Below, piece by piece: positions 1,307 through 31,935 of a DNA stretch of 64,000 bases (position 1 is the stretch's first letter; each line of letters starts with the position of its first letter). The notes under the pieces were generated by a model, which was given only the letters and a program-made list of their open reading frames with translations, was not told the origin of the DNA and did no database searches. The stretch covers positions 248,001 through 312,000 of the forward strand of contig NZ_MJEJ02000053.1 in NCBI RefSeq assembly GCF_002095435.2. Reading direction: 5' to 3'. The position numbers and the translations under genes are program-made. Origin of the DNA: Williamsia sp. 1138. GTDB taxonomy: Bacteria; Actinomycetota; Actinomycetes; Mycobacteriales; Mycobacteriaceae.

Positions 1307-1325
1307 TTTGCTTAGGCTAACCTTC
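1307..1325. promoter_or_regulatory. IdeR/DmdR iron box between mbtA and mbtI
   Basis: The 19-mer TTTGCTTAGGCTAACCTTC matches the IdeR consensus TTAGGTTAGGCTAACCTAA at 15 of 19 positions, including an unbroken TTAGGCTAACCT. It lies about 95 bases from each divergent start (1211 and 1420), so one repressor site could control both mbtA and the mbtI operon. The match was counted by eye; binding is inferred. Confidence 0.8.
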
Positions 1326-1348: not shown

Positions 1349-1419
1349 GTGGAGCACGGTCGCGTGATGCGGTGAGCAGAGGATGTCATGAGCAAAGCAT
1401 GTGCCGCAGGAGTGTCGCG

Positions 1420-5404: not shown

Positions 5405-5405
5405 G

Positions 5406-10229: not shown

Positions 10230-10246
10230 ACGGCCGGGGCCTCGGG

Positions 10247-10912: not shown

Positions 10913-11013
10913 GGCGGTGGTGCTCCGTTCACGTGCCTGCGGTCAATGAAGCAAAGCCTACGTCAAGGCCTCGCGGCCTCCGCACAACCGCCGAAGATGA
11001 GGAGTACCACCCA

Positions 11014-13171: not shown

Positions 13172-16100
13172 TTACCGATTGCCCGACGGCCGTGTCCCGG
13201 TGATCGTGTCTTCCGACTCGGCGGAGCTGTTGCGGACCGAAGCGGCGGCCTTGGCCGACTACCTGCATAGGCACCCGGAGGTGACGATCGGGGACGTCTC
13301 CTCGATGCTGATGCGCACCAGGGTTGTCCGGCGTCACCGGGCGATGGTCCTGGCCACCGATTCCGCGCAGCTGACCGAAGCTCTCGAAGCCCTGGCCGAG
13401 GGGGTCGACCACGCGGATGTGATCGCCGGGCGCGGCGCAGCTGCCAAGCGCACCACCGGCTTCATCTTCCCGGGCCAGGGCAGCCAGAGGCGGGGGATGG
13501 GCAGGCTCTTCTACGACCTCTCACCGGTGTTCCGCGAATCCGTTGAGGGCAGTAACGCACTCTTCCAGGAGCTGTACGACATCTCGCCGCTGGATTACCT
13601 GCTCGGGGAAGAATCCGACGAGCGTGAGGACATCCGGATCGTCCAGCCGGCGCTGCTGATGCAGATGGTCGCGCTCGCGCAGATGTGGCGATCGGTGGGG
13701 GTCGAACCGGCGACCACGGTCGGCCACAGCCAGGGCGAGATCGCCGCGGCATACATCTCCGGGGCGATGTCGCTGGCCGATGCCATCCACGTCGTGACGA
13801 GCCGGGCGAACCTGGTGGTCGAGTTCTCGCCGACCGGCTATTCGATGGCTGTCGTCGCGATCGACCGCGACGAATGCGAGGCGATGCTGGCAGCGAACTC
13901 CGGATGGGCCGAGCTCTCCGTCGTGAACTCACCCCACATCCTGTGCATCTCGGGTGACCGCGGCACGGTGATCGAGATGGTCGAAGCCCTGACAGCGGGG
14001 GGCAAGTTCGCCAAGGAGATCCGGGTCGACTATCCGGCGCACACGTCTATAGTCGCCCAGTTCCGTACGAAGCTCGGGGAAGCGATCGGCGACAAGCTCG
14101 AGAACCAGGCGTTCCTCGAGACGGACATCGGTTGTGTCGGTGGCACGCTCGGCAAGCAGGTCACGACCGACTATCTGCTCTCGGACTACTGGTTCTGGAA
14201 TCTGCGCAATCCGGTCCGGTTCGACCTCGCGGTCGGGGCCGCCGTCGCCGGTGGCGCCGACACCTTCATCGAGGTCGCCGAACATCCGACCCTGATGCTG
14301 GCCATCGGCGAGAACATCAGCGTCACCGCACCCGATGCGACGATCCCGGTGATCGGCACCTCGCGCCGCAGCTCCGTCGATCTCGCAGAGTTCACGAAGA
14401 ACCTCGCCACGGTCGCGGTCAACGACACCGGATACCGCTGGGAGGCACTCGCGGTCGCCGATGACGGGGCGCCGCCGTTGCCCCTGCGGGATTTTCCGGC
14501 AGTGCAGATGAAGGCGACGTCGCTGTGGGCATCTCACCTCGCTCCCGGCGAGAAGCCACGTGGTGCGGCGGTGTCGCCCGAGACTGCGCGGGAGTACCCG
14601 CGTCGTGTCGTCGAGACCTGGACGCGACTGCAGCGGCGCAAGCTGGGTCCACCGCGGTCGTTTCTCGTCGTCGAACACGGCGGCGGCAGTGGTGATGTCG
14701 CCGCGGGCCTGGTGGCTGCGGCTGCAGACCACGGCGCGAGCGCCACCGTGTACGAATCGGGGGTCACCCAGGGGGCGTTCGATTCGGTGGTCGTCGTGCT
14801 ACCTGCACTGCCTAGCGTTGATCTACCGACCGCGGTGGCCGAATTGGCGCGGCTCTTCGGAGACCCGCAGTGGCTGCCCGACGTCGCGAGGGGGGCCGCC
14901 GAGTGCTGGCTCGTCACGGTGGGCGGCGAGTCCGTCCTGCCCGACGACGAGCTGCCGCAGCTGTTCGGCGCAGGCGCGGCGGCAGGATTTCGCTGTCTTG
15001 CTGCGGAATTCCCGACCACGGTGTTCCGGCACCTCGATCTCCCGGCGGATGCGCCCGCGAGCACAGTCGTCGGTGCGCTGCACACGGCAGTGGAATCGGA
15101 CCTCGCGCTGCGTGGGGGCAAGATCTACGCCAAACGACTGGTCTACGCGGAGCCCGATGCGTCTGCAGCCGACTCACGGCCCGCAACAGAGAATCTGGGT
15201 CACGTCGTGATCGTGGGCGGAACCGGCAAACTCGGACTCGAGTTCTGCGAGCACTACGTGCGGGCGGGTGCCGACCGAATCACGCTGTTGAGCCGCACCG
15301 GCGCGAGTGCGGCCATCGAACCGCGACTGAGGGCGATCCGGGCGCTCGGAGATACCGACATCGTCGTCGCCTCCTGCGACGTCGGAGAAGAATCGTCCGT
15401 TCTCCAGTTCGCTGCGGCACACGAGAACATTCCCGCGGGGGTGCTCGTCCACGCCGCCGTCAACTACGTCGACGCGGGTCTGGACGACATCACGCCGGAG
15501 ATGGTCACGGAAGCCGCCTCGTCGAAGGTGCTGGGCATCGCCAACGTGCTGCGATCGTTCCCGCTCACTCCCGATTGCCGGGTGCTGCTGTGCTCGTCGA
15601 TCGCGGCGTCACTGGGCGGTCGCGGTCAGATCCTGTACGCGGTCACCAACCGACTGCTCGACATCCTGGCCCGCACGCTGCGGGTCCAGGGCATCGATGC
15701 CCACGCGCTGCAGTGGGGCCTGTGGAGTGTGCAAGGACCGCTCGATCAGGCGGCCGTCGCCCGGGTCGAGGGCGCGGGCGTCGTCCCGATGAGGCCGGCA
15801 GATGCGCTCGCGGTCGCCTTCGAGGGGAGGCAGCGTGACTCGATCATCGCTGCGGCGGATTGGGTGCAGTTGCATGCCCTGGTATCGGTGTTCGGGCATG
15901 GATCGCTGATCGCGGGGCTGGTCCCGCCATCGCCGGCCCCACAAACCCCTGCTGCCGCGACCCCGGTCGTCCCCACGGGTCCGACGACTCCGGTCATCGC
16001 GTCGCGGGAGCTCACGTTCTCGGAACTCGTTGTCGCCGAACTCAATCAAGTGATGGGTATCGAGGGAGGCGACATCGACCGCTCGATGCCGCTGGTGGCG

Positions 16101-16253
16101 CTCGGACTGGACTCCCTGCAGGCCCTCGACTTCCGGAAGCGGGTGAAAGCAGAGTTGGACCGGGATCTGCCGATCGAAGCGATCCTCGGCGGCGCATCGC
16201 TGGACGAGGTCGTGGCCCTGATGGACGAACAGTCCCGGAGCCGGGTGGGCTGA
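13164..16253 (+). CDS. mbtD: Polyketide synthase AT-KR-ACP (MbtD-like)
   Basis: Supplies and reduces the two-carbon extension to a beta-hydroxyacyl unit. It is 1029 residues from the ATG at 13164 (GGAGG 6 bases upstream), near MbtD length. Order: AT with FIFPGQGSQRRGMG and GHSQGEIAAAY (Ser189), then KR with NADPH site VIVGGTGKLGLEF near 680 and SSIAASLGGRG followed by YAVTN, then ACP with LGLDSLQAL (Ser984). The AT specificity loop reads YPAH rather than the usual HAFH or YASH, so malonyl-CoA is likely but not certain. An Ala/Pro linker separates KR and ACP. Confidence 0.92.
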   Translation: MPSYRLPDGRVPVIVSSDSAELLRTEAAALADYLHRHPEVTIGDVSSMLMRTRVVRRHRAMVLATDSAQLTEALEALAEGVDHADVIAGRGAAAKRTTGFIFPGQGSQRRGMGRLFYDLSPVFRESVEGSNALFQELYDISPLDYLLGEESDEREDIRIVQPALLMQMVALAQMWRSVGVEPATTVGHSQGEIAAAYISGAMSLADAIHVVTSRANLVVEFSPTGYSMAVVAIDRDECEAMLAANSGWAELSVVNSPHILCISGDRGTVIEMVEALTAGGKFAKEIRVDYPAHTSIVAQFRTKLGEAIGDKLENQAFLETDIGCVGGTLGKQVTTDYLLSDYWFWNLRNPVRFDLAVGAAVAGGADTFIEVAEHPTLMLAIGENISVTAPDATIPVIGTSRRSSVDLAEFTKNLATVAVNDTGYRWEALAVADDGAPPLPLRDFPAVQMKATSLWASHLAPGEKPRGAAVSPETAREYPRRVVETWTRLQRRKLGPPRSFLVVEHGGGSGDVAAGLVAAAADHGASATVYESGVTQGAFDSVVVVLPALPSVDLPTAVAELARLFGDPQWLPDVARGAAECWLVTVGGESVLPDDELPQLFGAGAAAGFRCLAAEFPTTVFRHLDLPADAPASTVVGALHTAVESDLALRGGKIYAKRLVYAEPDASAADSRPATENLGHVVIVGGTGKLGLEFCEHYVRAGADRITLLSRTGASAAIEPRLRAIRALGDTDIVVASCDVGEESSVLQFAAAHENIPAGVLVHAAVNYVDAGLDDITPEMVTEAASSKVLGIANVLRSFPLTPDCRVLLCSSIAASLGGRGQILYAVTNRLLDILARTLRVQGIDAHALQWGLWSVQGPLDQAAVARVEGAGVVPMRPADALAVAFEGRQRDSIIAAADWVQLHALVSVFGHGSLIAGLVPPSPAPQTPAAATPVVPTGPTTPVIASRELTFSELVVAELNQVMGIEGGDIDRSMPLVALGLDSLQALDFRKRVKAELDRDLPIEAILGGASLDEVVALMDEQSRSRVG

Positions 16254-17184: not shown

Positions 17185-20100
17185 ATGCCAGAAGATGTGA
17201 TTGCGCGCCGAAAAGAACTGCTACGCAGGCGGTTGCGTGAACGCGGACTGAGCGCGGATGAGTCCGCGCCGGTGCCGGTCCGGGTGCCGGGCGAACGCTC
17301 TCCGTTGTCTCCCGGCCAGCAGCGGCTGTGGTTCGTCCAGCACCGCGATCCCGCCGATACCACCCTCAATGTCTGTGTGGCATACCGCCTCACGGGTGCG
17401 CTGGACCCGGACAGGCTGCGCGCGGCGGTGAGTGCGGTCGTCGACCGACACGAGATCCTGCGCACCTCCTACGGCGTCGACGACTCGGGAAGCCCCTATC
17501 AGGTCGCCGCTGCGCACGTGGACGTGCCGTGGAGCGAACACGATGTGTCCGACCTTCCCGAGCAGGGCAGGGCCCGCCGCCTCGAGGTGCTCGCGCGACG
17601 ACAGTTCTCCCGCTCATTCGACCTGAGCTCTGACCCGCTCCTCCGGATCAGCCTGGTGCGCACAGATGTCGACGAGTGGGCGCTCATCCTCGTGGTGCAT
17701 CACATCTGCTGGGACGACGATTCCTGGGAGGTGTTCTTCGGTGAGGTGAATGCCGCCTACAACGCCGGACCGGTGCCGCAGGGCCTGGCTGCCCAGTTCG
17801 TGGACGTAGCGGTACTCGGTCCGCGCCAGGGCGGAGTCGAAGACACGCAGGGCATCGACTACTGGCGCTCGAAGTTGCGGCCACCGCCGGAGTGGCTCGA
17901 ACTCCCGGCCGAGAATCAGGGTCCCGCAGCGAAGACCGCAGGGCACGGAAGGCGCGCCATCCCGTCCGAGGTGATCGACGCCGTCGCCCGTCATGCGAGA
18001 GAGCAATCGAGCACGCCGTTCGCGGTGCTGCTGGCGGCGTTCAGCGCCTTGATCAACCGATACACCGGCAGCGACGACTTCCTCGTCGCCGTACCCGTCG
18101 TGGATCGCTCGGCGCCTGCGCAGTCGCTGATCGGTTACTTCGGCAACAGCCTGCTGTTGCGGTCGAGTGTGGATCCGGACTCGACCTTCGCCGATCTGGT
18201 CGCCGCCACCCGTGACGAGGCACTCGGCGGGTTCGCGCACCAGCACATCGGGGTCGATCGCGTGGTCCGGGAGATCAACCCCGACCGTGTCGGCGGCGGC
18301 GACGGCCTCGAACAAATTGTGCGCTTGAGCTTTTCCACCCGCAAGAGTGCGGTCGGTTTCGCGCTCGACAACGTGCGTGCTGAGCAACTGGAGCTGAGCA
18401 GTTCGGTGACCCAACTGCCGCTGGGGCTGACAGTGGTGCTGGGCGACGACCACGCGTATGTGGAGGCGGAATATTTCGCCGACGTACTCGACGGACGGAT
18501 CGTCGACCGGATGCTCGCCGGTTACGTGGACCTGCTCCGCGGCGCCCTGGCCGAGCCGGACCGGCAGCTCGCGCAGCTGGACGTTCTCGGTACCGAACGG
18601 GCCGAGGTGATCGAACGATCGCTGGGCGAGCAGGTCCCTGCGGCTGCGACGACGTTGGCCGCGATGTTCGAGGCCAGGGTCGCCGCGCATCCGGACCATC
18701 CGGCGCTCACCGACGACCACGTCGTGCTGACCTATCGTGACCTCAACGTTCGCGCGAACCGACTGGCGCACTGGTTGATCGGTGAGCACCGCATCGGTCC
18801 CGAAGACATCGTCGCCCTCGAGATCGCGGCCTCGGTGGAGTTCGTCGTCGCCGCAACGGCGGTCCTCAAGGCAGGTGCGGCCTACCTGCCGATCGATCCG
18901 TCCTACCCGGGTGACCGCATCGACTTCATGATCGAGGATGCGGAGCCCAAACTCATACTGGGCGCGGCAGAACTCGCAGCAGCAGAGCGCGCCGCGAGCG
19001 TCCTCTCGATCACCGATCCGGTGGACGCGGACAGGGTGACGCCCCTGCTGCCGCAGTCGCTCGCGTACGTCATCTACACGTCGGGGTCGACCGGTAGGCC
19101 GAAGGGCGTCTCCGTGCCGCACCTGGCCATCGCAGACCACCTGGCAGGCTTTCATGCTCAGTTCGGGATGACCGCGGACGACCGGCTCGTGCAGACGTCG
19201 TCGGTGAGTTTCGATGCGTCGTTGTTCGAGGTCTTCTGCACCCTGACCCTCGGCGCCACCCTGGTTGTTCCGAAACCGGATGCTCTGCAGGACATTCCGT
19301 ACATGGCTGATCTGCTGGTGCGCCAGCGGGTGACGGTCATGCACATGGTCCCGTCGATGCTGAGCATGTTCCTGCTGCTGCCGGGTGTCAACGAGTGGAC
19401 CACATTGCGGCAGATCCCGGTCGGCGGAGAGGCATTGCCCGGAGAGGTCGCGGACAAGTTCGGGACGGTGTTCGACGCGCAACTGCGCAACAACTACGGT
19501 CCCACCGAAGCCGTGGTGGCCGCGACGCATTACCCGGTCGACGGACCGCAGGGTGTGCGGGTGGTCCCCATCGGGGTGCCCAACCGCAACGTGGCGGTCT
19601 ACCTGCTCGATCGGACCCTGCAACTCGTCCCGGCCGGCGTCGTCGGTGAGATCTATATCGGCGGTGACCAACTCGCGCGCAGCTACCACGGCCGTCCGGC
19701 GCTGACCGCGGAACGGTTCGTCGCCGATCCGTTTCGACCCGGTGGCAGGCTGTACCGCACAGGAGATCTCGCCCGGCACAACGTCGACGGCGACATCGAG
19801 TTCGTCGGCCGAGCGGACGAGCAGGTCAAGATTCGCGGATTCCGGATCGAACTCGGTGAGGTCGAGGCCGCGTTGTCGACCCACCCGGCGGTCGCCCGCG
19901 CACTCGTGATCGTCACCGGGGATCCCAACGTGGGACCCGCGCTGGCCGGCTACCTCGTGGGGGAGCGGGGCGCGGAAGTGGACATCGACTCGGTGCGAGA
20001 ACACGCAACCGCGGTCCTGCCGGACTACATGGTGCCCAGCGCATTCGCCGTGATCGATGAGGTGCCGCTGACCGCGCACGGCAAACTCGACAGGGACGCG

Positions 20101-23100
20101 CTCCCGGACCCGGCCGGCGCGGCCCCGCGAGTCTTCCGGGCGCCGGCAACGGCCACCGAGATCCGGGTTGCGGCGCTGTTCACGCAGCTGTTCGGCCGCG
20201 ACAGCATCGGTGCCGACGATTCGTTCTTCGAACTCGGTGGGCACTCGCTGCTCGCCGCCCGCCTGGTGACGCAGATCCGTACCGAGTTCGGGGTGGACAT
20301 CGACGTACGCGCGCCCTTCGACACCCCCACGGTCGCCGGTCTGGCCTCCTGGCTCGTCGCACAGGTACAGGAGGAGTTCGGTATCGACCTCGATGCCGAC
20401 GACGACTACGACGACTACGAATCAACGGGCGGCGCAACGACACCGCAACGACCACCATTGGTGAAGCGAGAACGCCCCGAACGTGTTCCCCTGTCCTACT
20501 CGCAGCTCGCGATGTGGTTCGCGCGGCGTTTCGAGGGCCCGAGTGCGATGGGGAACATCCCCATGGCCGTGCGGATCGACGGTCCGTTGGACGCCGCTGC
20601 GCTCGCTGCCGCCGTGGGCGATGTGGTGGCGCACCACGAGGCCCTGCGCACCACGTTCCCCGAACACCAGGGCATTCCGTATCAACTGATCGGTCCGATC
20701 GGCTCCGTGCCGCTACCGATCACGGTGCTCGGCGGTGAGTCGATCGCGGAATCAGAGATGTTGCTGACCGCGCAGCTCGAGGCCATCGCGCACTACAACT
20801 TCGCAGTCGAATCCGAACCACTGCTCCGAGCGCACCTCTTCGTGCTCGGTCACGACGTCCACGTGTTGTCGATCCTGGTGCACCACATGGTCATCGATCA
20901 CTGGTCGTTCGGTGTGCTGCTGGCAGATCTCGGTACCGCCTACCGGCATCGACTCGCGCATGGGGCCGGGCCGGCCTGGCCGCAGCACCCGATCGAGTAC
21001 GCCGACTACGCATTGTGGCAGCGTGACCTGTTCGATGGAGACGCAGCGCAGCGGAGCTCGACCATTGGCACCGATGGATCGTCGGTCGAGGTGGGTGCAG
21101 GGCAGATCGACTACTGGCGAACGACCTTGGCGGGGGCACCCGACGAGATCACCGTGGCAGCAGATCACCCCCGGCCGCCGGTCCTCGGCAAAACGGGTGA
21201 AGTGGTGTCGTTCACGGTGCCGGTGGAACTGCGTACCCGCGTACGGGAGATGGCCGACACGATCGGCGTCAGCGAGTTCATGGTGCTGCAGTCGGCGGTC
21301 GCCACCTTGCTGCACAAGCTCGGTGGCGGCGACGACATCGCGATCGGTACGCCCATCGCCGGCCGGACCGACGAGGTGACCACGGACCTCGTGGGACTCT
21401 TCGCGAACATGGTCGTGTTGCGCAACATCCTCGGTGGTGAGCTCACGCTCCGCGAGGTCCTGCTGCGGGGGCGCGACGTCGCCCTCGGTGCCTACAGCAA
21501 TCAGGATGTGCCCATCGAGCGCCTGGTCGAAGCGCTCAACCCGCGGCGCTCCCGTTCCCGCAACCCGCTGTTCCAGGTCATGATGCACTTCCGGGATGAG
21601 TACAGTGCCCCGGACAGTCAGGCCTTCAACGAATCCGGTGCCACGACGCTCTCGTTGTTGCCGGTCGAGTTCGAGACCTCGTTCCTGGATCTGAACATCA
21701 TCTTCGCCTCGCGTACCGATGGTGAACTCGCTGCACGGCTGGTCGCCGCCGACGACCTGTACACCCGCGAAGGTGCGGAACTGATCGCCGACCGGTTGGT
21801 GCGTGTGCTGGCCGCATTCGCCGACGACGTCGATCAGCCGGTCCGGCGCGTGGATGTACAGTCGCCGGCCGAACGGGAGCGGGTGCTCGGCACCTTCAGT
21901 CGCGGCGCAGACGTCGCGGCGGGTGCGCTTGGTGCGCGACTGGGCGCTGCGGGACTGCAGAATCCGGATTCGGTTGCCGTCGTCCGTGGTTCGGACTCCT
22001 TGACCTACGGGGAACTGCGATCCGGTGACGCCGCCGGATTCGCTGATGTCCGAGAGGCGTTCATGCGCGCGGCCGGAGGCGGCGGGCGCGACTCCGCCGG
22101 CTTGCCGGAGGCAGGCGACGGGTCTGTGGGCGTGCGCCTGATCGCGACGCCGCCGGCGTCGCCTGCGGGCACGTCCGAACTGCTCGCCGGGCTTGCCCGG
22201 TCGGCCACAGTGGTTCTGGCAACAGATTCCGAGCGCGATGATCCGGCTGCGCTGGCACGACTCATCGCTCGGCATTCGGTCGAGCGAGTCGTCGCGGAAC
22301 CGAAGGTGTTGGCACTCCTCGCCCATTCCGGTACCTCCGTGATGCCGTCGGTACGCAGTTGGGTGGCGTCATCACCGGACGGCCCGGCTTCCCTGGCCGA
22401 GGTGCTCTCGGCACTGTCAGCGGGATCGACCAGTCATTACTACTATGCGCCTGCAGATTTCGAATCTGTTGCCGTGGTGGGACAGATGGGTGGGAGGCGT
22501 TCGGGACGTCCTGCGCCTGGGACGTCGGTGTTGATCCTCGACCAGTCGATGATGCCGGCACCGATCGGTGTCTTCGGCGACGTGTACCTGGCGGGAGCGC
22601 AGACAGCAGTCGGCGAGTGGGTGTCGAATCCCTACTCATCCGGTTCCCGGTTGCTGCGTAGCGGTGATCGGGCCAAGTGGGACCACGACGGCGGCCTGAT
22701 ATTCGAGATCACCGCCGCCGACGTGGCGGTCGTCGGTGTCGGAAGCGGCGGAGAAGCTCCCCAGACCGCCACTGAAAAGGCACTTTCCGACCTGTTGGGG
22801 GAACTTCTCGAGATCGACGACGTGGGCCGCGACGACAACTTCTTCGCGCTCGGCGGCGACAGCGTGATCTCGATCCAGATGGCCGGGCGTGCGGCGGCCG
22901 ACGGCCTCCCACTGACCCCGCAGATGATCTTCGATCATCACTCGATCGCCGAACTCGCGGCTGCCGTGGACGATGCGCTCGCCAACCCGCCGGTCGAGGT
23001 GGAGACCCCCGCGGAGACGGTGGCCCGCACCCATGCGCCGATGAGCACATCAGGACTCAGCGATGACGCGCTGGCTGCTCTCACGGCCACCTGGAAACCC

Positions 23101-23109
23101 GGGTCATGA
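17185..23109 (+). CDS. mbtE: NRPS C-A-PCP-C-A(vestigial)-PCP (MbtE-like)
   Basis: Adds the first lysine and probably forms the following ester link. It has 1974 residues. Module 1: C domain with HHICWDD (H172, H173), A domain with YTSGSTGRPKG near 630, NNYGPTEAVVAA, YRTGDLARHNVDG, GKLDRDAL, and PCP with LGGHSLLAAR (Ser1021). Module 2: C domain with HHMVIDH (H1233, D1238; the usual final Gly is His), then about 300 residues that keep only A-domain fragments (DSLTYGELRSGD, LLRSGDRAKWDHDG) and lack the SGSTG loop, the FD and YGPTE motifs and the catalytic lysine region. An intact PCP follows with LGGDSVISI (Ser1893). It overlaps mbtF by 4 bases. Confidence 0.88.
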   Translation: MPEDVIARRKELLRRRLRERGLSADESAPVPVRVPGERSPLSPGQQRLWFVQHRDPADTTLNVCVAYRLTGALDPDRLRAAVSAVVDRHEILRTSYGVDDSGSPYQVAAAHVDVPWSEHDVSDLPEQGRARRLEVLARRQFSRSFDLSSDPLLRISLVRTDVDEWALILVVHHICWDDDSWEVFFGEVNAAYNAGPVPQGLAAQFVDVAVLGPRQGGVEDTQGIDYWRSKLRPPPEWLELPAENQGPAAKTAGHGRRAIPSEVIDAVARHAREQSSTPFAVLLAAFSALINRYTGSDDFLVAVPVVDRSAPAQSLIGYFGNSLLLRSSVDPDSTFADLVAATRDEALGGFAHQHIGVDRVVREINPDRVGGGDGLEQIVRLSFSTRKSAVGFALDNVRAEQLELSSSVTQLPLGLTVVLGDDHAYVEAEYFADVLDGRIVDRMLAGYVDLLRGALAEPDRQLAQLDVLGTERAEVIERSLGEQVPAAATTLAAMFEARVAAHPDHPALTDDHVVLTYRDLNVRANRLAHWLIGEHRIGPEDIVALEIAASVEFVVAATAVLKAGAAYLPIDPSYPGDRIDFMIEDAEPKLILGAAELAAAERAASVLSITDPVDADRVTPLLPQSLAYVIYTSGSTGRPKGVSVPHLAIADHLAGFHAQFGMTADDRLVQTSSVSFDASLFEVFCTLTLGATLVVPKPDALQDIPYMADLLVRQRVTVMHMVPSMLSMFLLLPGVNEWTTLRQIPVGGEALPGEVADKFGTVFDAQLRNNYGPTEAVVAATHYPVDGPQGVRVVPIGVPNRNVAVYLLDRTLQLVPAGVVGEIYIGGDQLARSYHGRPALTAERFVADPFRPGGRLYRTGDLARHNVDGDIEFVGRADEQVKIRGFRIELGEVEAALSTHPAVARALVIVTGDPNVGPALAGYLVGERGAEVDIDSVREHATAVLPDYMVPSAFAVIDEVPLTAHGKLDRDALPDPAGAAPRVFRAPATATEIRVAALFTQLFGRDSIGADDSFFELGGHSLLAARLVTQIRTEFGVDIDVRAPFDTPTVAGLASWLVAQVQEEFGIDLDADDDYDDYESTGGATTPQRPPLVKRERPERVPLSYSQLAMWFARRFEGPSAMGNIPMAVRIDGPLDAAALAAAVGDVVAHHEALRTTFPEHQGIPYQLIGPIGSVPLPITVLGGESIAESEMLLTAQLEAIAHYNFAVESEPLLRAHLFVLGHDVHVLSILVHHMVIDHWSFGVLLADLGTAYRHRLAHGAGPAWPQHPIEYADYALWQRDLFDGDAAQRSSTIGTDGSSVEVGAGQIDYWRTTLAGAPDEITVAADHPRPPVLGKTGEVVSFTVPVELRTRVREMADTIGVSEFMVLQSAVATLLHKLGGGDDIAIGTPIAGRTDEVTTDLVGLFANMVVLRNILGGELTLREVLLRGRDVALGAYSNQDVPIERLVEALNPRRSRSRNPLFQVMMHFRDEYSAPDSQAFNESGATTLSLLPVEFETSFLDLNIIFASRTDGELAARLVAADDLYTREGAELIADRLVRVLAAFADDVDQPVRRVDVQSPAERERVLGTFSRGADVAAGALGARLGAAGLQNPDSVAVVRGSDSLTYGELRSGDAAGFADVREAFMRAAGGGGRDSAGLPEAGDGSVGVRLIATPPASPAGTSELLAGLARSATVVLATDSERDDPAALARLIARHSVERVVAEPKVLALLAHSGTSVMPSVRSWVASSPDGPASLAEVLSALSAGSTSHYYYAPADFESVAVVGQMGGRRSGRPAPGTSVLILDQSMMPAPIGVFGDVYLAGAQTAVGEWVSNPYSSGSRLLRSGDRAKWDHDGGLIFEITAADVAVVGVGSGGEAPQTATEKALSDLLGELLEIDDVGRDDNFFALGGDSVISIQMAGRAAADGLPLTPQMIFDHHSIAELAAAVDDALANPPVEVETPAETVARTHAPMSTSGLSDDALAALTATWKPGS

Positions 23110-26100
23110 CCGGAGGCGTGGTCGATCGGTCGGCGCCGCCTGCCATCGAGGATGTGCTCGCGCTCAGCCCTTTGCAGGAAGGGCTGTTCTCGCTGTCGAA
23201 GATCGCAGGCGACGACCTGGACCTGTACTCGATGCAGTTCATCGTCGAGATCAACGGTCCGGTGGATGTGGCGTTGCTACGCCGCAGCGTCGAGGCGATC
23301 TTCGAGCGGCATCCGAACCTGCGGGTGTCGTTCTACGACCGCGACATCCCCACCCCCGTGCAGATCGTGCCGAGTTGGGTGGACGTCCCATGGTCTGAGC
23401 GAGACGCCGACCCCGCCGAATTCGATGCGATCGCAGAGTCGGAGCGGCGCAGGAATTTCGATCTCTCGTCGGGTCCGGCTCTGCGGGTCGTGCTGGTCAA
23501 GTTCACCGGTGGACGCAGGCGGTTGCTGATCACGGCGCATCACATCTTGATGGACGGCTGGGCTGTCGCGATCTTTTTCCAAGAGCTGCTCGCGGTGTAC
23601 GAGGCCGGCGGCGAATCCACGTCGTTGCCGGCTCCGCGGCCGTACCGGGACTACATCGGCTGGCTCGCTGCGCAGGACTCGGTGGCGGCGACCGAGGCGT
23701 GGGCGACGTACCTCCGCCGGTTGAGTGCTCCTCTGATGCTTGCCGAAGGGGCGGTGACACCGGCCGATGCGGTACCGAGACGCACTCGTGTACAACTGGA
23801 TCCGGACGACACCGCTCGGCTGACCACCTGGGCGCGCACCAACGGGATCACCATCAACACCGCGGTACAGTTTGCCTGGGCAGTGGTGCTGGGCCGTCTC
23901 ACCGACCGCCGCGATGTGGTCTTCGGGACCACGATCTCGGGTCGCCCGGATTCGTTGCCCGGTGCCGAGACGATGATCGGGTTGTTCATCAACACCGTGC
24001 CGTCGGTCGTCGACATCGACCCGGCCGGAACTGTTCTCGGCCTGTGTCGAGGTCTGCAACGCGAGTCGGCGACCATGCGTGAGCTCGGCTTCCTCAGTCT
24101 GTCCGCAGTGCAGCGGGCAGGCGGCCGGGGCAGCCTCTTCGACACCCTGTTCGTGTTCGAGAACGCCCCGATCGGGGCGGTGACCGAACCCATCAGCACC
24201 GGCGACGGCGCCCGATTCCTGCCGGTGGCCATGGAAAGCCTCGCCCACTACCCGCTCACCATTGCCGCATACCTGCTCGGTGAGCACCTCGTGGTGATGA
24301 CGGAGGCCATCGACGGCGCGTTGCCCCACCTGCCACCGGACGAGATAGCGGAACGAATCCTACTGGTGCTCCGGCAATTACCGGACGCGGCGAACTCCGG
24401 TCCCGATCACCTGGAGGTCCGGCTGGCGGACGAGGTCATCGCCGACGAACCTCCGGCGTCGGCAACGGATGCGGTCCCCAGCGGCACCATCGCGGACATC
24501 TTCGCCCGCCAGGTGGCTGCGACACCCGAGGCGCCGGCGTTGACCAGCACGCACCGCGACTACACCTATGCCGAGTTGCACGACGACGTCATGCGGCTGG
24601 CCAATGAGATGGCGGACCGCGGTGCCGGCCCGGAGTCGGTGGTGGCGGTGGCCCTCGACAGGTCTGCCGATTCGATCGTGGCGATCTTCGCGGCGCTGTC
24701 CGCCGGCGTCGCCTACGTGCCGATCGATGTGTCGCTCCCCGAATCCCGGATCGGTTCGATTCTGCGACAATCGAATCCGAGACTCATCATCAGCTCCGCC
24801 GCACACGTCGAGCTGCTCGAGGCGGCCGGTGCGGGCCGCAGTCAGTGCCTGGTCCTGGACGACCCGGCGACGTCTGCGGCTCTCGGTGTGCAGTCGACAT
24901 CACGTCCGGACCTCGCCGCGACGTCCGACCTTGCCGCATATCTCATCTTCACATCCGGCTCGACGGGTGAGCCGAAGGGTGTCATCGGTACGCATGGCGC
25001 CCTCGCAAGCTATTTCGCAGACCACCGCGATCATGTCTACGCACCGGCCACGGCAAGACTCGGCCGCAGACTCCGGATCGCCCATGCCTGGTCTCTGAGT
25101 TTCGATGCGTCGTGGCAGCCGATGATCGGATTGCTCGACGGGCACTGCGTGCACCTGTTCGACGGTTCGCAGATGCGTGATGCGCAGCAGCTGGTGTCCG
25201 GGCTCATCGACCACCGGATAGACATGATCGACACGTCGCCGTCGATGTTCGGCCAACTCGCTGCCGCAGGCATCGTCGGTGAGCCGCAGGCGGGAACCGA
25301 GCGGACGACGGGTTCCGACAGCTCGAGTGGTACGCAGTTGTCGGTGCTCGCGCTCGGTGGAGAAGCCATCAGTCAGGCTCTGTGGCAACAACTGCAGGAC
25401 GTCGAGGGTGTCGACGTCTACAACTGTTACGGCCCCACAGAGGCGACCGTGGAGGCACTGGTCGCCCCGATCAACAGCTCCGACGTCCCGACGGTCGGTA
25501 CGCCGGCCGATCGGATGACCGCCCACGTCCTCGACTCCCGGTTGCGTCCGGTGCCGCGGGGTGTCGTCGGCGAGCTGTACCTCGCCGGGGCCCAGGTCAC
25601 CAGAGGCTATGTGGGACAACCGGGAGTGACCGCGGGCCGCTACGTCGCCGACCCCTATGCGCGCGGCGGCCGCATGTACCGGACCGGGGACCTGGTGCGA
25701 CGGCTCCCGGACGGAAACCTCACGTTCCTGGGACGTGCCGACAGCCAGGTGAAGATCCGCGGATTCCGGATCGAGATCGGTGAGATCGAGACGGCCATGC
25801 GGCAACTGCCCGGAGTCGATACCGCGGCGGTGGTGGTCGTGCGGCGTCCGACGGGTGCGACCCTGGTGGGGTTCGTGGTCGGAGTGGACCTGCCCGCTGC
25901 GCAGGTACGCGCGGCACTGGCCGACAAGCTGCCGACCCATATGCTGCCCGCCCGGGTGCTGACCGTGCCTGTGCTACCGATGACGTCCAACGGCAAATTG
26001 GACGAGACGGTGCTGATCGAACTGGCGCGGGAGGCTCTGGCCGGCTCGTCGGGACCGCAAGCGCAACCGGCCACGGATACGGAACGTCTGCTGTGCACGG

Positions 26101-27719
26101 TGTTCGGTGAGCTGGTGGACGGTCCGGCTCCTGGTGTCGACGAAGACTTCTTCGACCTCGGTATGGACAGCATCGTGGCGATGTCGCTGGTCAACTTGTT
26201 GCGGCGGAGCGACATTCAGGTGAATCCGCGTCTCGTGCTGGCCAATCCGTCGGTGCGGACGCTGGCTGCCGCGATCGACAGCGGGGAGTCGGTCGGAGCC
26301 GACGACGAAGGCGAACAGGGCGGCCCGGGTGAGGTCGTCTCGTTGCCCGTGGTTCGCTGGATGTACGACTTCGGGCGGTTCCGGCGCTTCACGCAGACGA
26401 CCCTCATCGCCCTGCCGAAGGGGTTGTCCGGCGCCGAGCTCGAAGCGACACTCCAGGCGATCCTGGATTCGCACGCGATGCTGCGATCGCAGTTGCAGGA
26501 CAACGAGAATGGATATCAGCTGATCACCCGGAGTGTCGGGTCGGTACGTGCGTCCGACGTCCTGGTCACGGTGTCGGTCGGTGATGATCTCGGGGCGGGC
26601 GTCCAGCGTGAGGCACCGATTGCCATGGACCGCGTCGATCCGGTGACCGGGAACATGGTCGCCGCTGTGCGGTTGGTGCAAGACTCTCCCGACGAGGGGG
26701 ATGTGCTCCTTCTCGCGATTCACCACCTCGCCACCGATGCGGTGTCGTGGCATGTGCTGTTCGGAGACCTTGCCGAGTGCGGTCGACAGGTGGCCTCGGG
26801 GATCACGCCGACGCTGGGGCCGGAGTACACCTCGTACCGGCGGTTCTCGCACCTGCTGGCTGAGCGAAGTGGCACGGCGGATGTTCTCGGACAACGTTCG
26901 TACTGGGCCGCACAGGTGGCCGGGCAGGATCCGACCATCGGTGCGCGACCGGTCGATCCGGACAACGACACCTGGACGTCGTTGCGCACCACGGATGCGC
27001 ACACCTCCGTGGAGCAGACGGCGTCGGTTCTCGCGAATCTCGGCGGACCGATCGGTATGCGAGAGTTCTTGCTCGCGGCACTCACCCTGACGATCAACAC
27101 CTGGCGCACCGTCACCGGTCAGGACAAGTCGGCGGGCGCCCTCATCGCCTTGGAAGGTCATGGGCGCGAGGACGAGACCGTCGGTGCGGGTGTCGACACG
27201 TCGCAGACAGTGGGTTGGTTCACCAGTGTCTTCCCGGTTCGCCTCGGCGCCGGAGCCGATGCCGTCGATCTCGACGCCGCGGCCGAACGGCCGGATGCGG
27301 TGCGCGCTCTTGTCGATTCGGTGGCCGAGCACGTCGGCTCCATCCCCAACCGAGGACTCGACTACGGTCTGTTGCGGCATTTCGAGCGCGTGCCGGAACT
27401 GGTGGCGTCGGCCGACCCGCAGGTGGAGTTCAACTATCTCGGCCGGTTCGACCTCAGTGCGGCCGGTGCATCCGACACCCCCGAGCCATGGTCACCGATC
27501 ACCGATCTCGAACTCAACAGCCGGCTTCCGACCGCGCCGGAGCCCGACCTGCCGCTGCGCTACGCGCTGGACGTGGTGTCGGTCGTACGCGGCACACCCG
27601 AAGGGCCGCAACTCGTCACGAGCTGGCGGTGGAGTGAGGCGCTCATGGTCGAGGCGGACGCCGACCGGCTGGCCGAGATCTGGCAGCACGCGGTGTCGGC
27701 CGTGGCCGCAGCGCTCTAG
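23106..27719 (+). CDS. mbtF: NRPS C-A-PCP-E (MbtF-like)
   Basis: Expected to add the terminal lysine, whose hydroxylated, cyclised form is the cobactin ring. It has 1537 residues. C domain with HHILMDG (H145, H146, D150), A domain with FTSGSTGEPKG near 615, SLSFDASWQP, YNCYGPTEATVEA, YRTGDLVRRLPDG and NGKLDETVL, PCP with LGMDSIVAM (Ser1022), then an epimerisation-type domain with HHLATDAVSW (H1206, H1207), ALEGHGRED, TVGWFTSVFPVRL and PQVEFNYLGRFD. There is no thioesterase. The start ATG overlaps the mbtE stop (ATGA). Whether the E domain epimerises or aids release is unknown. Confidence 0.9.
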   Translation: MTGGVVDRSAPPAIEDVLALSPLQEGLFSLSKIAGDDLDLYSMQFIVEINGPVDVALLRRSVEAIFERHPNLRVSFYDRDIPTPVQIVPSWVDVPWSERDADPAEFDAIAESERRRNFDLSSGPALRVVLVKFTGGRRRLLITAHHILMDGWAVAIFFQELLAVYEAGGESTSLPAPRPYRDYIGWLAAQDSVAATEAWATYLRRLSAPLMLAEGAVTPADAVPRRTRVQLDPDDTARLTTWARTNGITINTAVQFAWAVVLGRLTDRRDVVFGTTISGRPDSLPGAETMIGLFINTVPSVVDIDPAGTVLGLCRGLQRESATMRELGFLSLSAVQRAGGRGSLFDTLFVFENAPIGAVTEPISTGDGARFLPVAMESLAHYPLTIAAYLLGEHLVVMTEAIDGALPHLPPDEIAERILLVLRQLPDAANSGPDHLEVRLADEVIADEPPASATDAVPSGTIADIFARQVAATPEAPALTSTHRDYTYAELHDDVMRLANEMADRGAGPESVVAVALDRSADSIVAIFAALSAGVAYVPIDVSLPESRIGSILRQSNPRLIISSAAHVELLEAAGAGRSQCLVLDDPATSAALGVQSTSRPDLAATSDLAAYLIFTSGSTGEPKGVIGTHGALASYFADHRDHVYAPATARLGRRLRIAHAWSLSFDASWQPMIGLLDGHCVHLFDGSQMRDAQQLVSGLIDHRIDMIDTSPSMFGQLAAAGIVGEPQAGTERTTGSDSSSGTQLSVLALGGEAISQALWQQLQDVEGVDVYNCYGPTEATVEALVAPINSSDVPTVGTPADRMTAHVLDSRLRPVPRGVVGELYLAGAQVTRGYVGQPGVTAGRYVADPYARGGRMYRTGDLVRRLPDGNLTFLGRADSQVKIRGFRIEIGEIETAMRQLPGVDTAAVVVVRRPTGATLVGFVVGVDLPAAQVRAALADKLPTHMLPARVLTVPVLPMTSNGKLDETVLIELAREALAGSSGPQAQPATDTERLLCTVFGELVDGPAPGVDEDFFDLGMDSIVAMSLVNLLRRSDIQVNPRLVLANPSVRTLAAAIDSGESVGADDEGEQGGPGEVVSLPVVRWMYDFGRFRRFTQTTLIALPKGLSGAELEATLQAILDSHAMLRSQLQDNENGYQLITRSVGSVRASDVLVTVSVGDDLGAGVQREAPIAMDRVDPVTGNMVAAVRLVQDSPDEGDVLLLAIHHLATDAVSWHVLFGDLAECGRQVASGITPTLGPEYTSYRRFSHLLAERSGTADVLGQRSYWAAQVAGQDPTIGARPVDPDNDTWTSLRTTDAHTSVEQTASVLANLGGPIGMREFLLAALTLTINTWRTVTGQDKSAGALIALEGHGREDETVGAGVDTSQTVGWFTSVFPVRLGAGADAVDLDAAAERPDAVRALVDSVAEHVGSIPNRGLDYGLLRHFERVPELVASADPQVEFNYLGRFDLSAAGASDTPEPWSPITDLELNSRLPTAPEPDLPLRYALDVVSVVRGTPEGPQLVTSWRWSEALMVEADADRLAEIWQHAVSAVAAAL

Positions 27720-28853: not shown

Positions 28854-30227
28854 TCAGGGTTTCGGGGTGCCGAGCACGAGGCTGCCCAGTGCGCATTCGG
28901 TGAGTTCGTCCACCCCGGCCAGCTCGGCGAAAGCGGCGGTGTCGCAGTAACCCTGGGCGACGGTGCCCAGTCCCATGTCGGTGGCGACCAAGGACATCGT
29001 CTGGGTGAGCACTCCCACGTGTTTGAGCATCACCGCGTAGGGGATCTGCTCGTAGGTCCACATCACCCGCCCGACGCGCGCTGCGAAGACGAAGAGGATC
29101 TGCGGTAGCTGCCCGCCGGAGAGGGTGAGTGACGACGGCGTCAGCAACCGGGCGATCGCGGGATTCTCGATGTCGGTCACCGGGCGCAGGACGTGGTCGA
29201 ACGAGTCGTAGTGGTACATGCCCGGAGTCACTCCCTGGCATTCGCGCACAACGGGATACACCTCGAGTTCATACAGTCCACCGCCAGATGGATAGGGCCG
29301 GGAACCGAATTCCTCGTCGCCGATCACCCGCAACTTTCGGTTGCGGTGGGTGCGAAAGAGAAACTCGCCGAGCTGCTCGAGGGTCGGAGCCGACGTGGTG
29401 TCGAAGTCGCGGCAGGATGCGCGATCCTCGATGGCGCTGGTGAGGGCGTCGCCGGTGACGCGCAGTTCGTCGAGGTCTGCGTCCTTCAGTGCGACGGCCG
29501 GCCCCGGATACGCAGGCTTGCGCGCCGGCAGGGGTGGATACGCACCTGCCGCCCATTTTGTCGGGCCGAACCGTCCCCAATCCTTGGCGCGCACACCGAA
29601 GGTGCTGTTGCGGTGAAACCACAACTCGTGTGCGCCCCAGCTACGGGTGGCGAACTCGGACTCCTCGACACCGGCCTGCGCGGTGAAACCCGCCCACGTC
29701 AGGTCCCGCGCGAGCTCGGCCATGACGTGGGGCGCGGGCGGATCGGCCTCGGGCAGACCGGCCAGTACCGCCAGCACGCCCGCGTCGTGGATCTCGACGT
29801 CGCACCATGACAACGGATGCTCGGCCACGCACCGACCATCGACTCGATGGATCACCGCGAACTTCGAGAGCTGCCCCACCACAGTGCTGTCGGGCGACAC
29901 CGGCGGCCGGGGCGGGGGAGTGTCGAAGGGCCGCAAGGTGTACAGGTCGCGGCCTGCCCAGCGCACCGTGACCGACAGAAGTCCTCGGCCGACCAGGTCG
30001 TCCAGTAGCCGCGTCACCGTGGGATCGGCCCCGGCGCCCGGTAGATCGCCCAGGGCCACCCGTCCCCGGCCCAGTACCTTGAGTGTCTGCACCTGCGCCG
30101 GCGTGAGGGCGGTGAGTCGTTCCTTCGCTGGTAGCAGCACCGCAACGCCTCCCGGTGCGGTCATCGCGGACGCCCCCGCACGGAAGGCGTATGCCAACTC
30201 GCGGCCGGTCGCGGGTGGAGCCGTCAC
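28854..30227 (-). CDS. SagB/ThcOx-type flavin-dependent dehydrogenase
   Basis: It has 457 residues. The N-terminal 110 resemble a winged-helix or peptide-recognition domain (LTPAQVQTLKVLGRGRV, VTRLLDDLVGRGLLSV). The C-terminal 200 form a nitroreductase-like FMN domain with RASCRDFD, RPYPSGGGLYELEVYPVV, MWTYEQIPYAVMLKHVG and MGLGTVAQGYCD. The PSGGGLYELE block is the SagB/ThcOx signature; known members oxidise azolines to azoles. The start overlaps the stop of the siderophore-binding protein gene by 4 bases, so it is coupled to siderophore uptake. The likely job is oxidation of the phenyloxazoline to phenyloxazole, as nocobactin-type products require. That role is inference. Confidence 0.82.
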   Translation of the reverse strand: MTAPPATGRELAYAFRAGASAMTAPGGVAVLLPAKERLTALTPAQVQTLKVLGRGRVALGDLPGAGADPTVTRLLDDLVGRGLLSVTVRWAGRDLYTLRPFDTPPPRPPVSPDSTVVGQLSKFAVIHRVDGRCVAEHPLSWCDVEIHDAGVLAVLAGLPEADPPAPHVMAELARDLTWAGFTAQAGVEESEFATRSWGAHELWFHRNSTFGVRAKDWGRFGPTKWAAGAYPPLPARKPAYPGPAVALKDADLDELRVTGDALTSAIEDRASCRDFDTTSAPTLEQLGEFLFRTHRNRKLRVIGDEEFGSRPYPSGGGLYELEVYPVVRECQGVTPGMYHYDSFDHVLRPVTDIENPAIARLLTPSSLTLSGGQLPQILFVFAARVGRVMWTYEQIPYAVMLKHVGVLTQTMSLVATDMGLGTVAQGYCDTAAFAELAGVDELTECALGSLVLGTPKP

Positions 30228-31198
30228 TTCGCGGCGTTCTCGAATGCCGGGGTCATCTTCTCGAGTACGAACGGAAGCGATAGCGGTGATGGCTGGTTGA
30301 TGGCGCTGACCTCGGCGACACTGAGTTCGGCGACGGCGTTCTTCTTCACAGACGTGAGAGCCGAGTAGCCGGGCAATGTCTTCATTTTTTCGTTCAGCGC
30401 CGGTGAGTTGGCAGCCAGGATCATCATGTCCGACTGTAGTTCTGGCACGTTCTCGGTGGAGATCGGGAACCGCGGCTGTCCGTCGCGCTCGAAGATCTTC
30501 TGCAGTTCTGGTGCCATGGTCATGCCCATCGAGGTGAACACCTCGGCCGCACCGTCGGCGGGATCACCGAACACCTGGATCTGATCGTTGGTGAGGATCC
30601 AGGCAAGCGCGAAGCTCTTGCCGGCCAATCCCGGATTGGCTTGTTTGATCCCGTCGATCTTGCTGTTGACGCCATCGATGATCTGCTGCGCCTTCTCGGG
30701 CTCCCGGAGCACGGTGCCCATGAAGACGACCATCTCTTCCCACGGGTCCACCTGCTTGCCGGTGATGGAAGGGATTGTGGGGGCCAGCTTGCTCAGCTTG
30801 GCGAATGTCTCTGTCTGGTCGCCGAAATCCGTCGAGACGATGAGGTCGGGATCGACGGCCGCGACCTGGCTGGCGACGTCGCGGGAGGGGTCGATGGCCT
30901 CCGAGGATTCGAGCCGGTCACCGACCCAGGGCGTCGGGGCCTTGGTCAGCAGTTCGACGTTGTCGAGGTACGCGACAGGGGTGACGCCGAAAGCCAGTGC
31001 CACGTCGGTCCATTGGGTGCCGATGGTGACGATGTTCTTGGGGACGCCGTTGATCGTGACCGGGCCCATCGGAGTGTTCACCTGGATGGGTGCCCCGTTG
31101 CCGGAGTCCTCCTCCGGTGAACTGCAGGCGGTGACGGTGAGAGTCAGTGCCGCAAAGAGTGCGAGCAGGGCGGTCAGGCGGTTCGAGCGGGCTCGCAT
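30224..31198 (-). CDS. Ferric-siderophore-binding lipoprotein
   Basis: Class III periplasmic-binding protein of a siderophore ABC importer. From the ATG at 31198 it has 324 residues, with a signal peptide and lipobox VTAC (Cys25) followed by a Ser/Glu-rich tether. The fold is shown by TINGVPKNIVTIGTQWTDVALAFG, VAAVDPDLIVSTDFGDQTETFAKLSKLAPTI (split here) and the C-terminal LPFVLEKMTPAFENAAK. An ATG at 31219 that overlaps the SIP stop (ATGA) would add seven residues; I prefer 31198 for the better signal peptide and AGAGAG upstream. It is the middle gene of the SIP-SBP-SagB operon. Its permease and ATPase partners are not in the window. Confidence 0.88.
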   Translation of the reverse strand: MRARSNRLTALLALFAALTLTVTACSSPEEDSGNGAPIQVNTPMGPVTINGVPKNIVTIGTQWTDVALAFGVTPVAYLDNVELLTKAPTPWVGDRLESSEAIDPSRDVASQVAAVDPDLIVSTDFGDQTETFAKLSKLAPTIPSITGKQVDPWEEMVVFMGTVLREPEKAQQIIDGVNSKIDGIKQANPGLAGKSFALAWILTNDQIQVFGDPADGAAEVFTSMGMTMAPELQKIFERDGQPRFPISTENVPELQSDMMILAANSPALNEKMKTLPGYSALTSVKKNAVAELSVAEVSAINQPSPLSLPFVLEKMTPAFENAAK

Positions 31199-31215: not shown

Positions 31216-31911
31216 TCATTTCCAGTAGGCCTGGGACTTGACCGATGTCTTGGGCAATTTGCTCTTGAGCGACTTGGTGATGTCCCTGGTGGTGTAGAAC
31301 TCGCAGGCCACCCATCCGAACGCGTCGGGGGTGACCGACAGTCGTGCGGCAGTGTCGCGGAGGGCCTGTCCTTTGGTGCCGCGCTCGACCCACTCCACGG
31401 TGGTCGCGGACGTCGCTTTCAGAGGCAGGTTCTTGTCCGATTCGTGCTGCCACTCCAGCCACACCCGGGCGGGGACGTCGCCGATCGCGTCGAGCAGGGA
31501 GTTGATCGCGGGTACGGCGGCAGGATCACCGAAGATCAGATACTCCGACGGCGCTGGGTCGGGGATCGCGAACTTCGAGCCCATGACAGTGGCGCCGATG
31601 GTCTCGCCGACCTCTGCGGCCACTGCCCAATTCGCGGCCGGCCCGTCGTGGAGCGCGAACTCGATGTCGAAGGTGTCGGCGGCTTCGTCTGGGTCGACCA
31701 GGGTGTATCCGCGCTGCTGTTGCTTGTCGCCGTTCGGTATCCACAACCGGATCCACTGGGTCGGGTGGCGATCGTGGTGACCGAGCAGACCACCGGCCTT
31801 GAAGCTGATCCGGACGTAACTGTCCGTGACCTGCTGCTTGCCGGTCACGGTCAGTTCGTAGTCATCAGCGCCGAGTGCCTTGAGTACCAGCCCTTGTAGT
31901 CCCCTGCTCAT
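31216..31911 (-). CDS. Siderophore-interacting protein (FAD ferric-siderophore reductase)
   Basis: ViuB/SIP family, 231 residues, expected to reduce imported ferric siderophore in the cytoplasm and free the iron. The FAD-binding motif QQRGYTLVD (RxYT) lies near residue 67, with HPTQWIRLWIPNGD before it, the NAD(P)H-domain core PSEYLIFGDPAAVPAINSLLD near 130 and ARVWLEWQHESD. The first gene of its operon. No Shine-Dalgarno is visible before the ATG at 31911; a TAAGCT hexamer lies at -13 to -8 and an iron box just upstream, which fits leaderless transcription. Confidence 0.9.
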   Translation of the reverse strand: MSRGLQGLVLKALGADDYELTVTGKQQVTDSYVRISFKAGGLLGHHDRHPTQWIRLWIPNGDKQQQRGYTLVDPDEAADTFDIEFALHDGPAANWAVAAEVGETIGATVMGSKFAIPDPAPSEYLIFGDPAAVPAINSLLDAIGDVPARVWLEWQHESDKNLPLKATSATTVEWVERGTKGQALRDTAARLSVTPDAFGWVACEFYTTRDITKSLKSKLPKTSVKSQAYWK

Positions 31912-31916
31912 GACGG

Positions 31917-31935
31917 TGAGCTTAGCCTAAGCTCT
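31917..31935 (-). promoter_or_regulatory. Iron box over the SIP start
   Basis: Read on the minus strand, the 19-mer holds TTAGGCTAA exactly and matches the IdeR consensus at 14 of 19 positions. It ends only 5 bases before the SIP ATG, where it would cover the -10 element of a leaderless promoter and block it when iron is bound. Confidence 0.75.

Follow-up and report, generated by a model that had tools for sequence, protein, structure and literature searches.

What would a SagB/ThcOx-type oxidase be doing in an operon of siderophore uptake genes? In Williamsia sp. 1138 such a gene lies within the window analysed here, a stretch of 64,000 nucleotides, behind the genes for a siderophore-interacting protein (SIP) and a siderophore-binding lipoprotein, and a nocobactin-like cluster stands tail to tail with this operon, with one DMT-like transporter gene in between. 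From the sequence and its relatives, we conclude that SagB is very probably an aryl-oxazoline dehydrogenase of a nocobactin-type siderophore pathway. This idea is already in print for Nocardia (PMC7413640); the comparison across genera is what we add. The operon and the parts of SagB discussed below are:

28854..30227, minus strand: SagB/ThcOx-type FMN dehydrogenase, 457 aa, GTG start, proposed aryl-oxazoline dehydrogenase (TIGR03605 and Pfam)
29883..30227, minus strand: SagB N-terminal region up to about residue 115, which corresponds to the peptide-clamp/RRE-like region of ThcOx (profile match to CyaGox)
29052..29054, minus strand: codon of Tyr392, aligned with the catalytic Tyr260 of BmdC, motif WTY (invariant in 52 of 52 rows; numbering by hand)
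30224..31198, minus strand: siderophore-binding lipoprotein, Peripla_BP_2 (domain match; lipobox-like LTVTACSS by eye)
31216..31911, minus strand: siderophore-interacting protein, FAD-binding, first gene of the operon (Pfam)
31917..31935, no strand assigned: iron-box-like palindrome of IdeR/DtxR type before the SIP-lipoprotein-SagB operon (14/19)

The first-pass annotation had described a 4-base overlap of SagB with the lipoprotein gene, in an operon behind an iron box, and both features are borne out. The gene order is SIP-lipoprotein-SagB, with the lipoprotein gene beginning 17 bases past the SIP gene; the overlap is exact, since the letters GTGA hold both the start codon of SagB (GTG, from 30227) and the stop codon of the lipoprotein gene (TGA, 30224-30226). 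Just ahead of the SIP start, the palindrome AGAGCTTAGGCTAAGCTCA (31917-31935, minus-strand reading) agrees at 14 of 19 bases with the IdeR/DtxR consensus, against which 1307-1325 was scored as well. Thirty block shuffles gave a mean of 0.3 matches of that quality per 64 kb. The palindrome ranks second among the window's iron-box matches, behind 1307-1325, and a stricter pattern (at most 3 mismatches) found the 1307 site only and missed 31917-31935. Its 17-base core, AGCTTAGGCTAAGCTCA, is identical in all six Williamsia-group loci examined (L069-L074). The window's sagB is probably iron-regulated.

The identity of the enzyme, also proposed in the first pass, is agreed upon by TIGR03605, the Pfam ThcOx model and the FMN-binding and catalytic residues. 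TIGR03605 (SagB-family dehydrogenase) matches residues 282-454 with 138.6 bits against a cut-off of 78.4, and the Pfam nitroreductase (62.9 bits) and ThcOx (PF22767, 36.4 bits) matches each exceed their cut-offs. By sequence, the nearest solved structures are those of CyaGox/ThcOx (5lq4, 8pz5; E 2.4e-49), followed by BmdC (E 8e-9 to 2.5e-8) and McbC (E 2e-7). Among the other nitroreductases of the genome, for which there were nine Pfam matches, eight loci were compared, two of them from one place; besides the window's own SagB, none of the compared loci (8/9) aligned with SagB (best E 0.03). In a profile built from 52 SagB relatives, positions 31-445 of 446 match residues 33-464 of CyaGox (E 1.8e-82), so most of the N-terminal region is also homologous to CyaGox. 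As a single sequence, this region gave no significant Pfam match; for a winged-helix N-terminus, 3 of the 10 proteins scanned gave Pfam matches, all of them insignificant (E 0.02 to 0.26) and one of them to the ThcOx helix-turn-helix model. In passages of the cited papers, the N-terminal region of ThcOx is described as two peptide-clamp domains (PMC5108345), and the RRE-like domain of BmdC is, in its authors' judgement, a likely relic (PMC8795117). This qualifies the first-pass suggestion that the N-terminal domain of SagB could dock the carrier domain or the free siderophore.

SagB residues R269, S271, R273, Y392 and G426 align with R145, S147, R149, Y260 and G294 of BmdC, whose FMN-binding and catalytic residues are as named in passages of PMC8795117. 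Across an alignment of 52 sequences, R269, R273, Y392 and G426 are invariant and S271 is nearly so; by alignment, then, the FMN-binding Arg/Ser/Arg/Gly positions and the catalytic Tyr of azoline dehydrogenases are present in SagB. The residue before this Tyr is Thr in SagB and Lys in CyaGox and BmdC. A Lys directly before the catalytic Tyr is important in azoline oxidases, although we do not treat it as a defining trait. In 115 SagB matches, a count that includes duplicate genomes, the position holds T 92 times, S 13, G 4, A 4, another residue twice and K never.

The neighbouring cluster contains the following features:

1307..1325, no strand assigned: iron-box-like site before the siderophore synthesis genes, ahead of the salicylate synthase (15/19)
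1372..2778, plus strand: chorismate-binding enzyme, salicylate synthase of MbtI/NbtS type (Pfam level)
5385..8909, plus strand: MbtB/NbtF-type NRPS with carrier, condensation/cyclisation (DMIAGDAMS), adenylation and carrier domains, proposed maker of the hydroxyphenyl-oxazoline (domains)
8910..10229, plus strand: lysine N6-monooxygenase, MbtG/NbtG type (Pfam level)
10247..10912, minus strand: GNAT acyltransferase (Acetyltransf_8), MbtK/NbtH type (domain match)
10906..11799, plus strand: type II thioesterase (domain match)
11810..13171, plus strand: ketosynthase, MbtC/NbtB type (domain match)
12999..16253, plus strand: AT-KR-carrier PKS, MbtD/NbtC type, its true start probably further downstream (domain match)
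17185..23109, plus strand: MbtE/NbtD-type NRPS that has two condensation domains and two carrier domains (Pfam)
23106..27719, plus strand: MbtF/NbtE-type NRPS whose second condensation domain is probably of the epimerisation type (Pfam; E-type motif HHLATDAVSW by eye)

At the Pfam level, most parts of a nocobactin assembly line are present: salicylate synthase, aryl-loading NRPS, ketosynthase, AT-KR-carrier protein, two further NRPSs, lysine N-oxygenase and acyltransferase. The cyclisation motif DxxxxDxxS occurs once in the window's MbtB. The epimerisation domain, the cyclisation activity and the lysine specificity of these enzymes are read from sequence and remain putative. The window proteins scanned, a subset of the ORFs, included no stand-alone salicylate ligase (MbtA/NbtT); in Nocardia, according to passages of PMC7413640, the NbtT/MbtA-type salicylate-activating enzyme can sit in a second cluster. 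Between the salicylate synthase and MbtB genes, 2787-4585 on the plus strand encodes an ABC ATPase and an ABC-2 type membrane protein, which are candidates for the siderophore exporter. Between the PKS and MbtE genes, 16371-17108 on the plus strand encodes a protein that resembles the model for 'WKL family' lipoproteins (E 2.4e-13), with a score under the model's cut-off. We dropped the ORF at 10226-11083 (plus strand) as a gene; it overlaps the opposite-strand acyltransferase gene.

The pathway that these genes suggest would run as follows. MbtB would join salicylate to serine (or threonine) and cyclise the product to a hydroxyphenyl-oxazoline. With its FMN, SagB would then, by homology, remove two hydrogens, Tyr392 acting as the base and the hydride passing to FMN, to give the aromatic hydroxyphenyl-oxazole; by analogy with BmdC, this oxidation would most likely take place on the ring while it is still tethered to a carrier domain of MbtB. 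The finished siderophore would be exported, and its ferric complex would be retrieved by the lipoprotein and handled by the SIP flavoprotein. The predicted product is an N-acylated, nocobactin/nocardimicin-like aryl-oxazole. At the positions that we presume to be those of the MbtB binding pocket, the letters are DLYAFGLIH in the window, DLYNIGLIH in N. alba and DAYNTGLIH in N. gamkensis. Passages of PMC7413640 describe the N. alba product as serine-derived (by feeding) and that of N. gamkensis as a methyloxazole; the pocket letters weakly and slightly favour serine over threonine as the probable substrate of the window's MbtB.

We searched samples of genomes drawn from the larger family and order. 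Among 301 family genomes, SagB was found in 30, from 7 of 31 genera, and the N-terminal half of MbtB (E up to 1e-50) in 117: 29 genomes had both, one had SagB only (G016), 88 had MbtB only and 183 had neither (Fisher p 2.4e-12, uncorrected for kinship). The distance between the two genes in the 29 genomes was at most 40 kb in 21 and 212 kb in 2, and in 6 they lay on different contigs. In the genus Williamsia, 8 of 9 genomes, our own counted, have SagB, and the spacing of about 21-22 kb is alike in 8 genomes of the genus. A second set, of named loci, comprised the best 80 of 108 relatives; it overlaps with the sampled family genomes, and counts from the two sets are thus not independent. These 80 loci come from Williamsia, Antrihabitans, Gordonia, Nocardia, Skermania, Aldersonia, Mycobacterium, Mycolicibacterium and Mycobacteroides, plus one Mycobacteriaceae bacterium and one record titled Kitasatospora. 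In 72 of them, SagB has an MbtB-, MbtE- or MbtF-like NRPS no more than 10 kb away; of the other eight, seven have MbtB elsewhere in the genome and the eighth, the metagenome-assembled genome L110, gave no MbtB match. The earlier proposal to look for SagB homologues beside mbt-type NRPS genes thus met with co-occurrence in Williamsia, Gordonia, Nocardia and mycobacteria.

Some individual records deserve mention. The orphan SagB of G016 (L034, L167) sits beside IS110-type and Mutator-type transposase genes, in a genome with no MbtB match and with a SIP-like stretch about 4 kb from SagB; it looks like a remnant. The Kitasatospora record (L072, K. arboriphila NRRL B-24581) has a SagB of 70% identity, and its SagB and operon group with Williamsia, so the record is probably mislabelled or from the wrong culture. 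G163 and G193 (L036, L037, L168) carry divergent SagBs of about 41% identity, in which WTY has become DSY or DSH; that of G163 adjoins a lipoprotein gene, and the 20 kb examined there contain no relative of the siderophore NRPSs. These proteins read as either decaying or doing something else.

The association follows the history of MbtB. A tree of 69 MbtB N-terminal halves, from all 29 SagB-positive and 40 of the 88 SagB-negative genomes (the latter mostly top-scoring and chosen by hand), contains one clade of 31 (SH-aLRT 91) that holds 27 of the 29 SagB-positive rows and 4 of the 40 SagB-negative ones. The SagB label changes 5 times on this tree, compared with 22 times on average when it was shuffled 500 times. 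G163 and G193, the genomes with divergent SagBs, supply the two SagB-positive rows that fall outside the clade.

The immediate neighbours of SagB differ between groups. With the upstream neighbour taken as an automatically chosen ORF, a Peripla_BP_2 relative of the window's lipoprotein lies directly upstream of SagB in 46 of the best 80 of 108 loci, and in none of the 27 mycobacterial loci among them. There, SagB is instead tail to tail with MbtB in 19 of 27 (48-68 bp apart) or with MbtF in 6, or follows an MbtF-like NRPS in 2. The latter arrangement, on the same strand, is that of L115 and L145; in L085 SagB directly follows MbtB, again on the same strand, and L077 has MbtB, lipoprotein and SagB in that order. 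The 27 mycobacterial records with SagB and an MbtB/MbtF-like NRPS (L098, L103, L106-L108, L112, L113, L115, L116, L118, L119, L123, L125, L129, L130, L132, L136, L138-L142, L144-L148) include M. szulgai, M. simiae, M. gordonae and M. celatum. A receptor specific to SagB is not supported as stated: the lipoprotein family also lies near MbtB in SagB-negative genomes such as G014 and G171 (by eye, from the coordinates), and is far more widespread than SagB.

These arrangements bear directly on where in the life of the siderophore SagB would act. Its place in one operon with SIP and the lipoprotein suggests a role after uptake, namely that it oxidises free or re-imported siderophore as part of uptake or recycling; the frequency of the lipoprotein upstream neighbour fits this, as does G016, with its SagB and SIP-like stretch and no MbtB match. 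However, mycobacterial SagBs adjoin NRPS genes instead of the lipoprotein, the lipoprotein family accompanies MbtB in SagB-negative genomes such as G014 and G171 too, and BmdC, according to passages of PMC8795117, failed to oxidise the released product. The receptor pairing is thus common yet dispensable, which favours a biosynthetic role, and we regard an uptake-coupled one as unlikely. The nitroreductase fold and the nearby SIP could also suggest that SagB is a flavin reductase, a second SIP that frees iron from the ferric siderophore. This is very improbable given that its nearest solved relatives are azoline oxidases, that the base Tyr is conserved, that SagB tracks one MbtB lineage whereas the lipoprotein family is far wider, and that in Nocardia its presence tracks the oxidation state of the ring (passages of PMC7413640).

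The remaining alternative is that SagB serves a RiPP pathway, or some other azoline, and stands here by chance. Its homologues outside the family give this idea some footing: an order-wide search of 298 genomes, some of them from the family, found SagB homologues in 11 further genomes outside it, and 11 of the 12 outside-family loci have a YcaO gene at a distance of 0.4-5 kb, the twelfth being confined to a contig of 5.3 kb. Within the family the picture is the reverse. The first-pass annotation had seen no RiPP cyclodehydratase beside SagB, and this extends to the genome: its 6.08 Mb, listed as 100% complete, gave no YcaO match in a search that did find matches in 5 of 14 control genomes. Among 31 SagB-bearing family genomes tested, none has YcaO within 5 kb of SagB; 22 have no YcaO match at all, and the other 9 carry it either no nearer than 0.9 Mb (3) or on a different contig (6). 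The constant SagB-MbtB spacing in eight genomes of the genus also argues against chance. Since the genome gave no YcaO match, we reject the RiPP reading and consider it extremely unlikely.

The contrast between YcaO and NRPS neighbourhoods does, though, say something about origins. We built a SagB tree from the window protein, L010-L034 and L218-L229, without L035-L038, which are fragmentary or divergent; rows from the family were labelled 'NRPS', the G016 orphan included, and outside rows 'YcaO', L218 included. All 26 family SagBs fall into a single clade (SH-aLRT 100), which groups with the nearest outside rows, L218 and L219, at SH-aLRT 97; some outside rows, L219 among them, are on long branches, and the SagB and MbtB trees were both quick searches without bootstraps. 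One family clade together with the difference in neighbourhoods leads to the reading that siderophore synthesis recruited a RiPP azoline oxidase a single time in the ancestry of these family genomes, which seems to be supported by tree and gene context alike; the rooting, and the direction from RiPP to NRPS, are suggested by the context. We had considered the change from Lys to Thr before the catalytic Tyr as a mark of the siderophore clade, but this is weakened by the outside rows: Lys is present in 10 of 12, and the two nearest have Asn (L218) and Thr (the YcaO-linked L219). The Lys is therefore not universal there either, and its loss would either predate the switch of pathway or be separate from it.

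Three known systems resemble this one. The first is the sagB-like dehydrogenase of Nocardia nocobactin-type clusters (PMC7413640): the gene is homologous (50% identity in N. alba, L117; 54% in N. gamkensis, L089), the pathway is of the same type and the lipoprotein neighbour is the same in both strains, whereas the Williamsia gene, in another genus, is in an operon with SIP and overlaps the lipoprotein gene by 4 bases. BmdC of the bacillamide NRPS (7ly4-7ly7) is, in passages of PMC8795117, likewise a separately encoded FMN oxidase with an RRE-like N-terminal domain that serves an NRPS, and its FMN-binding residues and catalytic Tyr align with those of SagB. Unlike SagB, it acts on a thiazoline, is distant in sequence and has Lys before the Tyr; its RRE-like copies are fewer than those of ThcOx, and it has a wrapping loop in addition (PMC8795117, in part). 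ThcOx/CyaGox, the cyanobactin oxidase (PMC5108345), provides the closest solved structures and the same layout over nearly the full length, but has a RiPP substrate and WKY in place of WTY. By title and abstract opening, open-licence papers yielded none on a SagB-type siderophore enzyme outside Nocardia; PMC5719810, in its relevant passages, deals with a RiPP cluster, and SagB is not named in those of PMC10920908.

For Nocardia, passages of PMC7413640 report that clusters with sagB give phenoxazoles and those without it phenoxazolines, the products being mostly predicted from mass spectra. Two productive strains of that study are in our SagB set (N. alba NBRC 108234, L117; N. gamkensis NBRC 108242, L089). 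In the same passages, N. araoensis NBRC 100135, of subfamily III, for which a sagB-type gene is characteristic, yielded a compound of mycobactin type in which NMR showed an oxazoline, which counts against a simple rule that SagB means oxazole. Nocobactin was not found there in N. araoensis or in N. takedensis NBRC 100417 (subfamily VII), and the SagB of the latter strain is in our set (L090). N. cyriacigeorgica GUH-2 is placed by PMC7413640, in the part cited, in a subfamily that lacks sagB and makes oxazolines; our L085, N. cyriacigeorgica EML 446, has SagB behind MbtB, and this record may belong to another species. Further evidence against our proposal comes from the 88 of 117 MbtB-bearing family genomes that lack SagB, and from the 8 of 29 genomes in which the two genes are more than 40 kb apart or on other contigs. 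The Thr in place of Lys beside the catalytic Tyr, the lost motif in the divergent SagBs of G163 and G193, the SagB of G016 with no MbtB match, and the lack of a stand-alone salicylate ligase among the window proteins scanned also weigh against it. Nevertheless, the first-pass suggestion of an oxazoline oxidase that works on an NRPS product to give an aryl-oxazole siderophore is supported by the co-occurrence, the missing YcaO, the cluster parts and the Nocardia metabolomics. A more elaborate version, which we offer tentatively and think rather unlikely as a whole, is that a RiPP azoline oxidase was captured once, that its leader-binding domain was reused for the NRPS or the free siderophore, and that the receptor co-evolved with the state of the ring, to give a private oxazole siderophore; as part of it, the captured oxidase would now track a single MbtB lineage across Williamsia, Gordonia, Nocardia, Antrihabitans, Skermania and non-tuberculous mycobacteria. 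Were this true, co-transcription of SagB with the receptor would let the oxidation state of the ring and the receptor evolve together.

Our comparison turns a correlation within Nocardia into a prediction for several genera: SagB together with its MbtB lineage would mean an aryl-oxazole siderophore, and MbtB without SagB an aryl-oxazoline. In mycobacteria, the loci with SagB and an MbtB/MbtF-like NRPS would predict aryl-oxazole siderophores there as well. The NRPS neighbourhoods within the family, against the YcaO neighbourhoods outside it, would also be an example of a RiPP tailoring enzyme entering an NRPS pathway; the authors of BmdC proposed a similar move for bacillamide (PMC8795117, in the passages cited). 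Whether the variation between oxazole and oxazoline matters for iron sequestration or uptake is not clear, in the words of the part of PMC8978914 used here, and Williamsia, with a single and probably iron-regulated sagB, would be a clean setting for that question.
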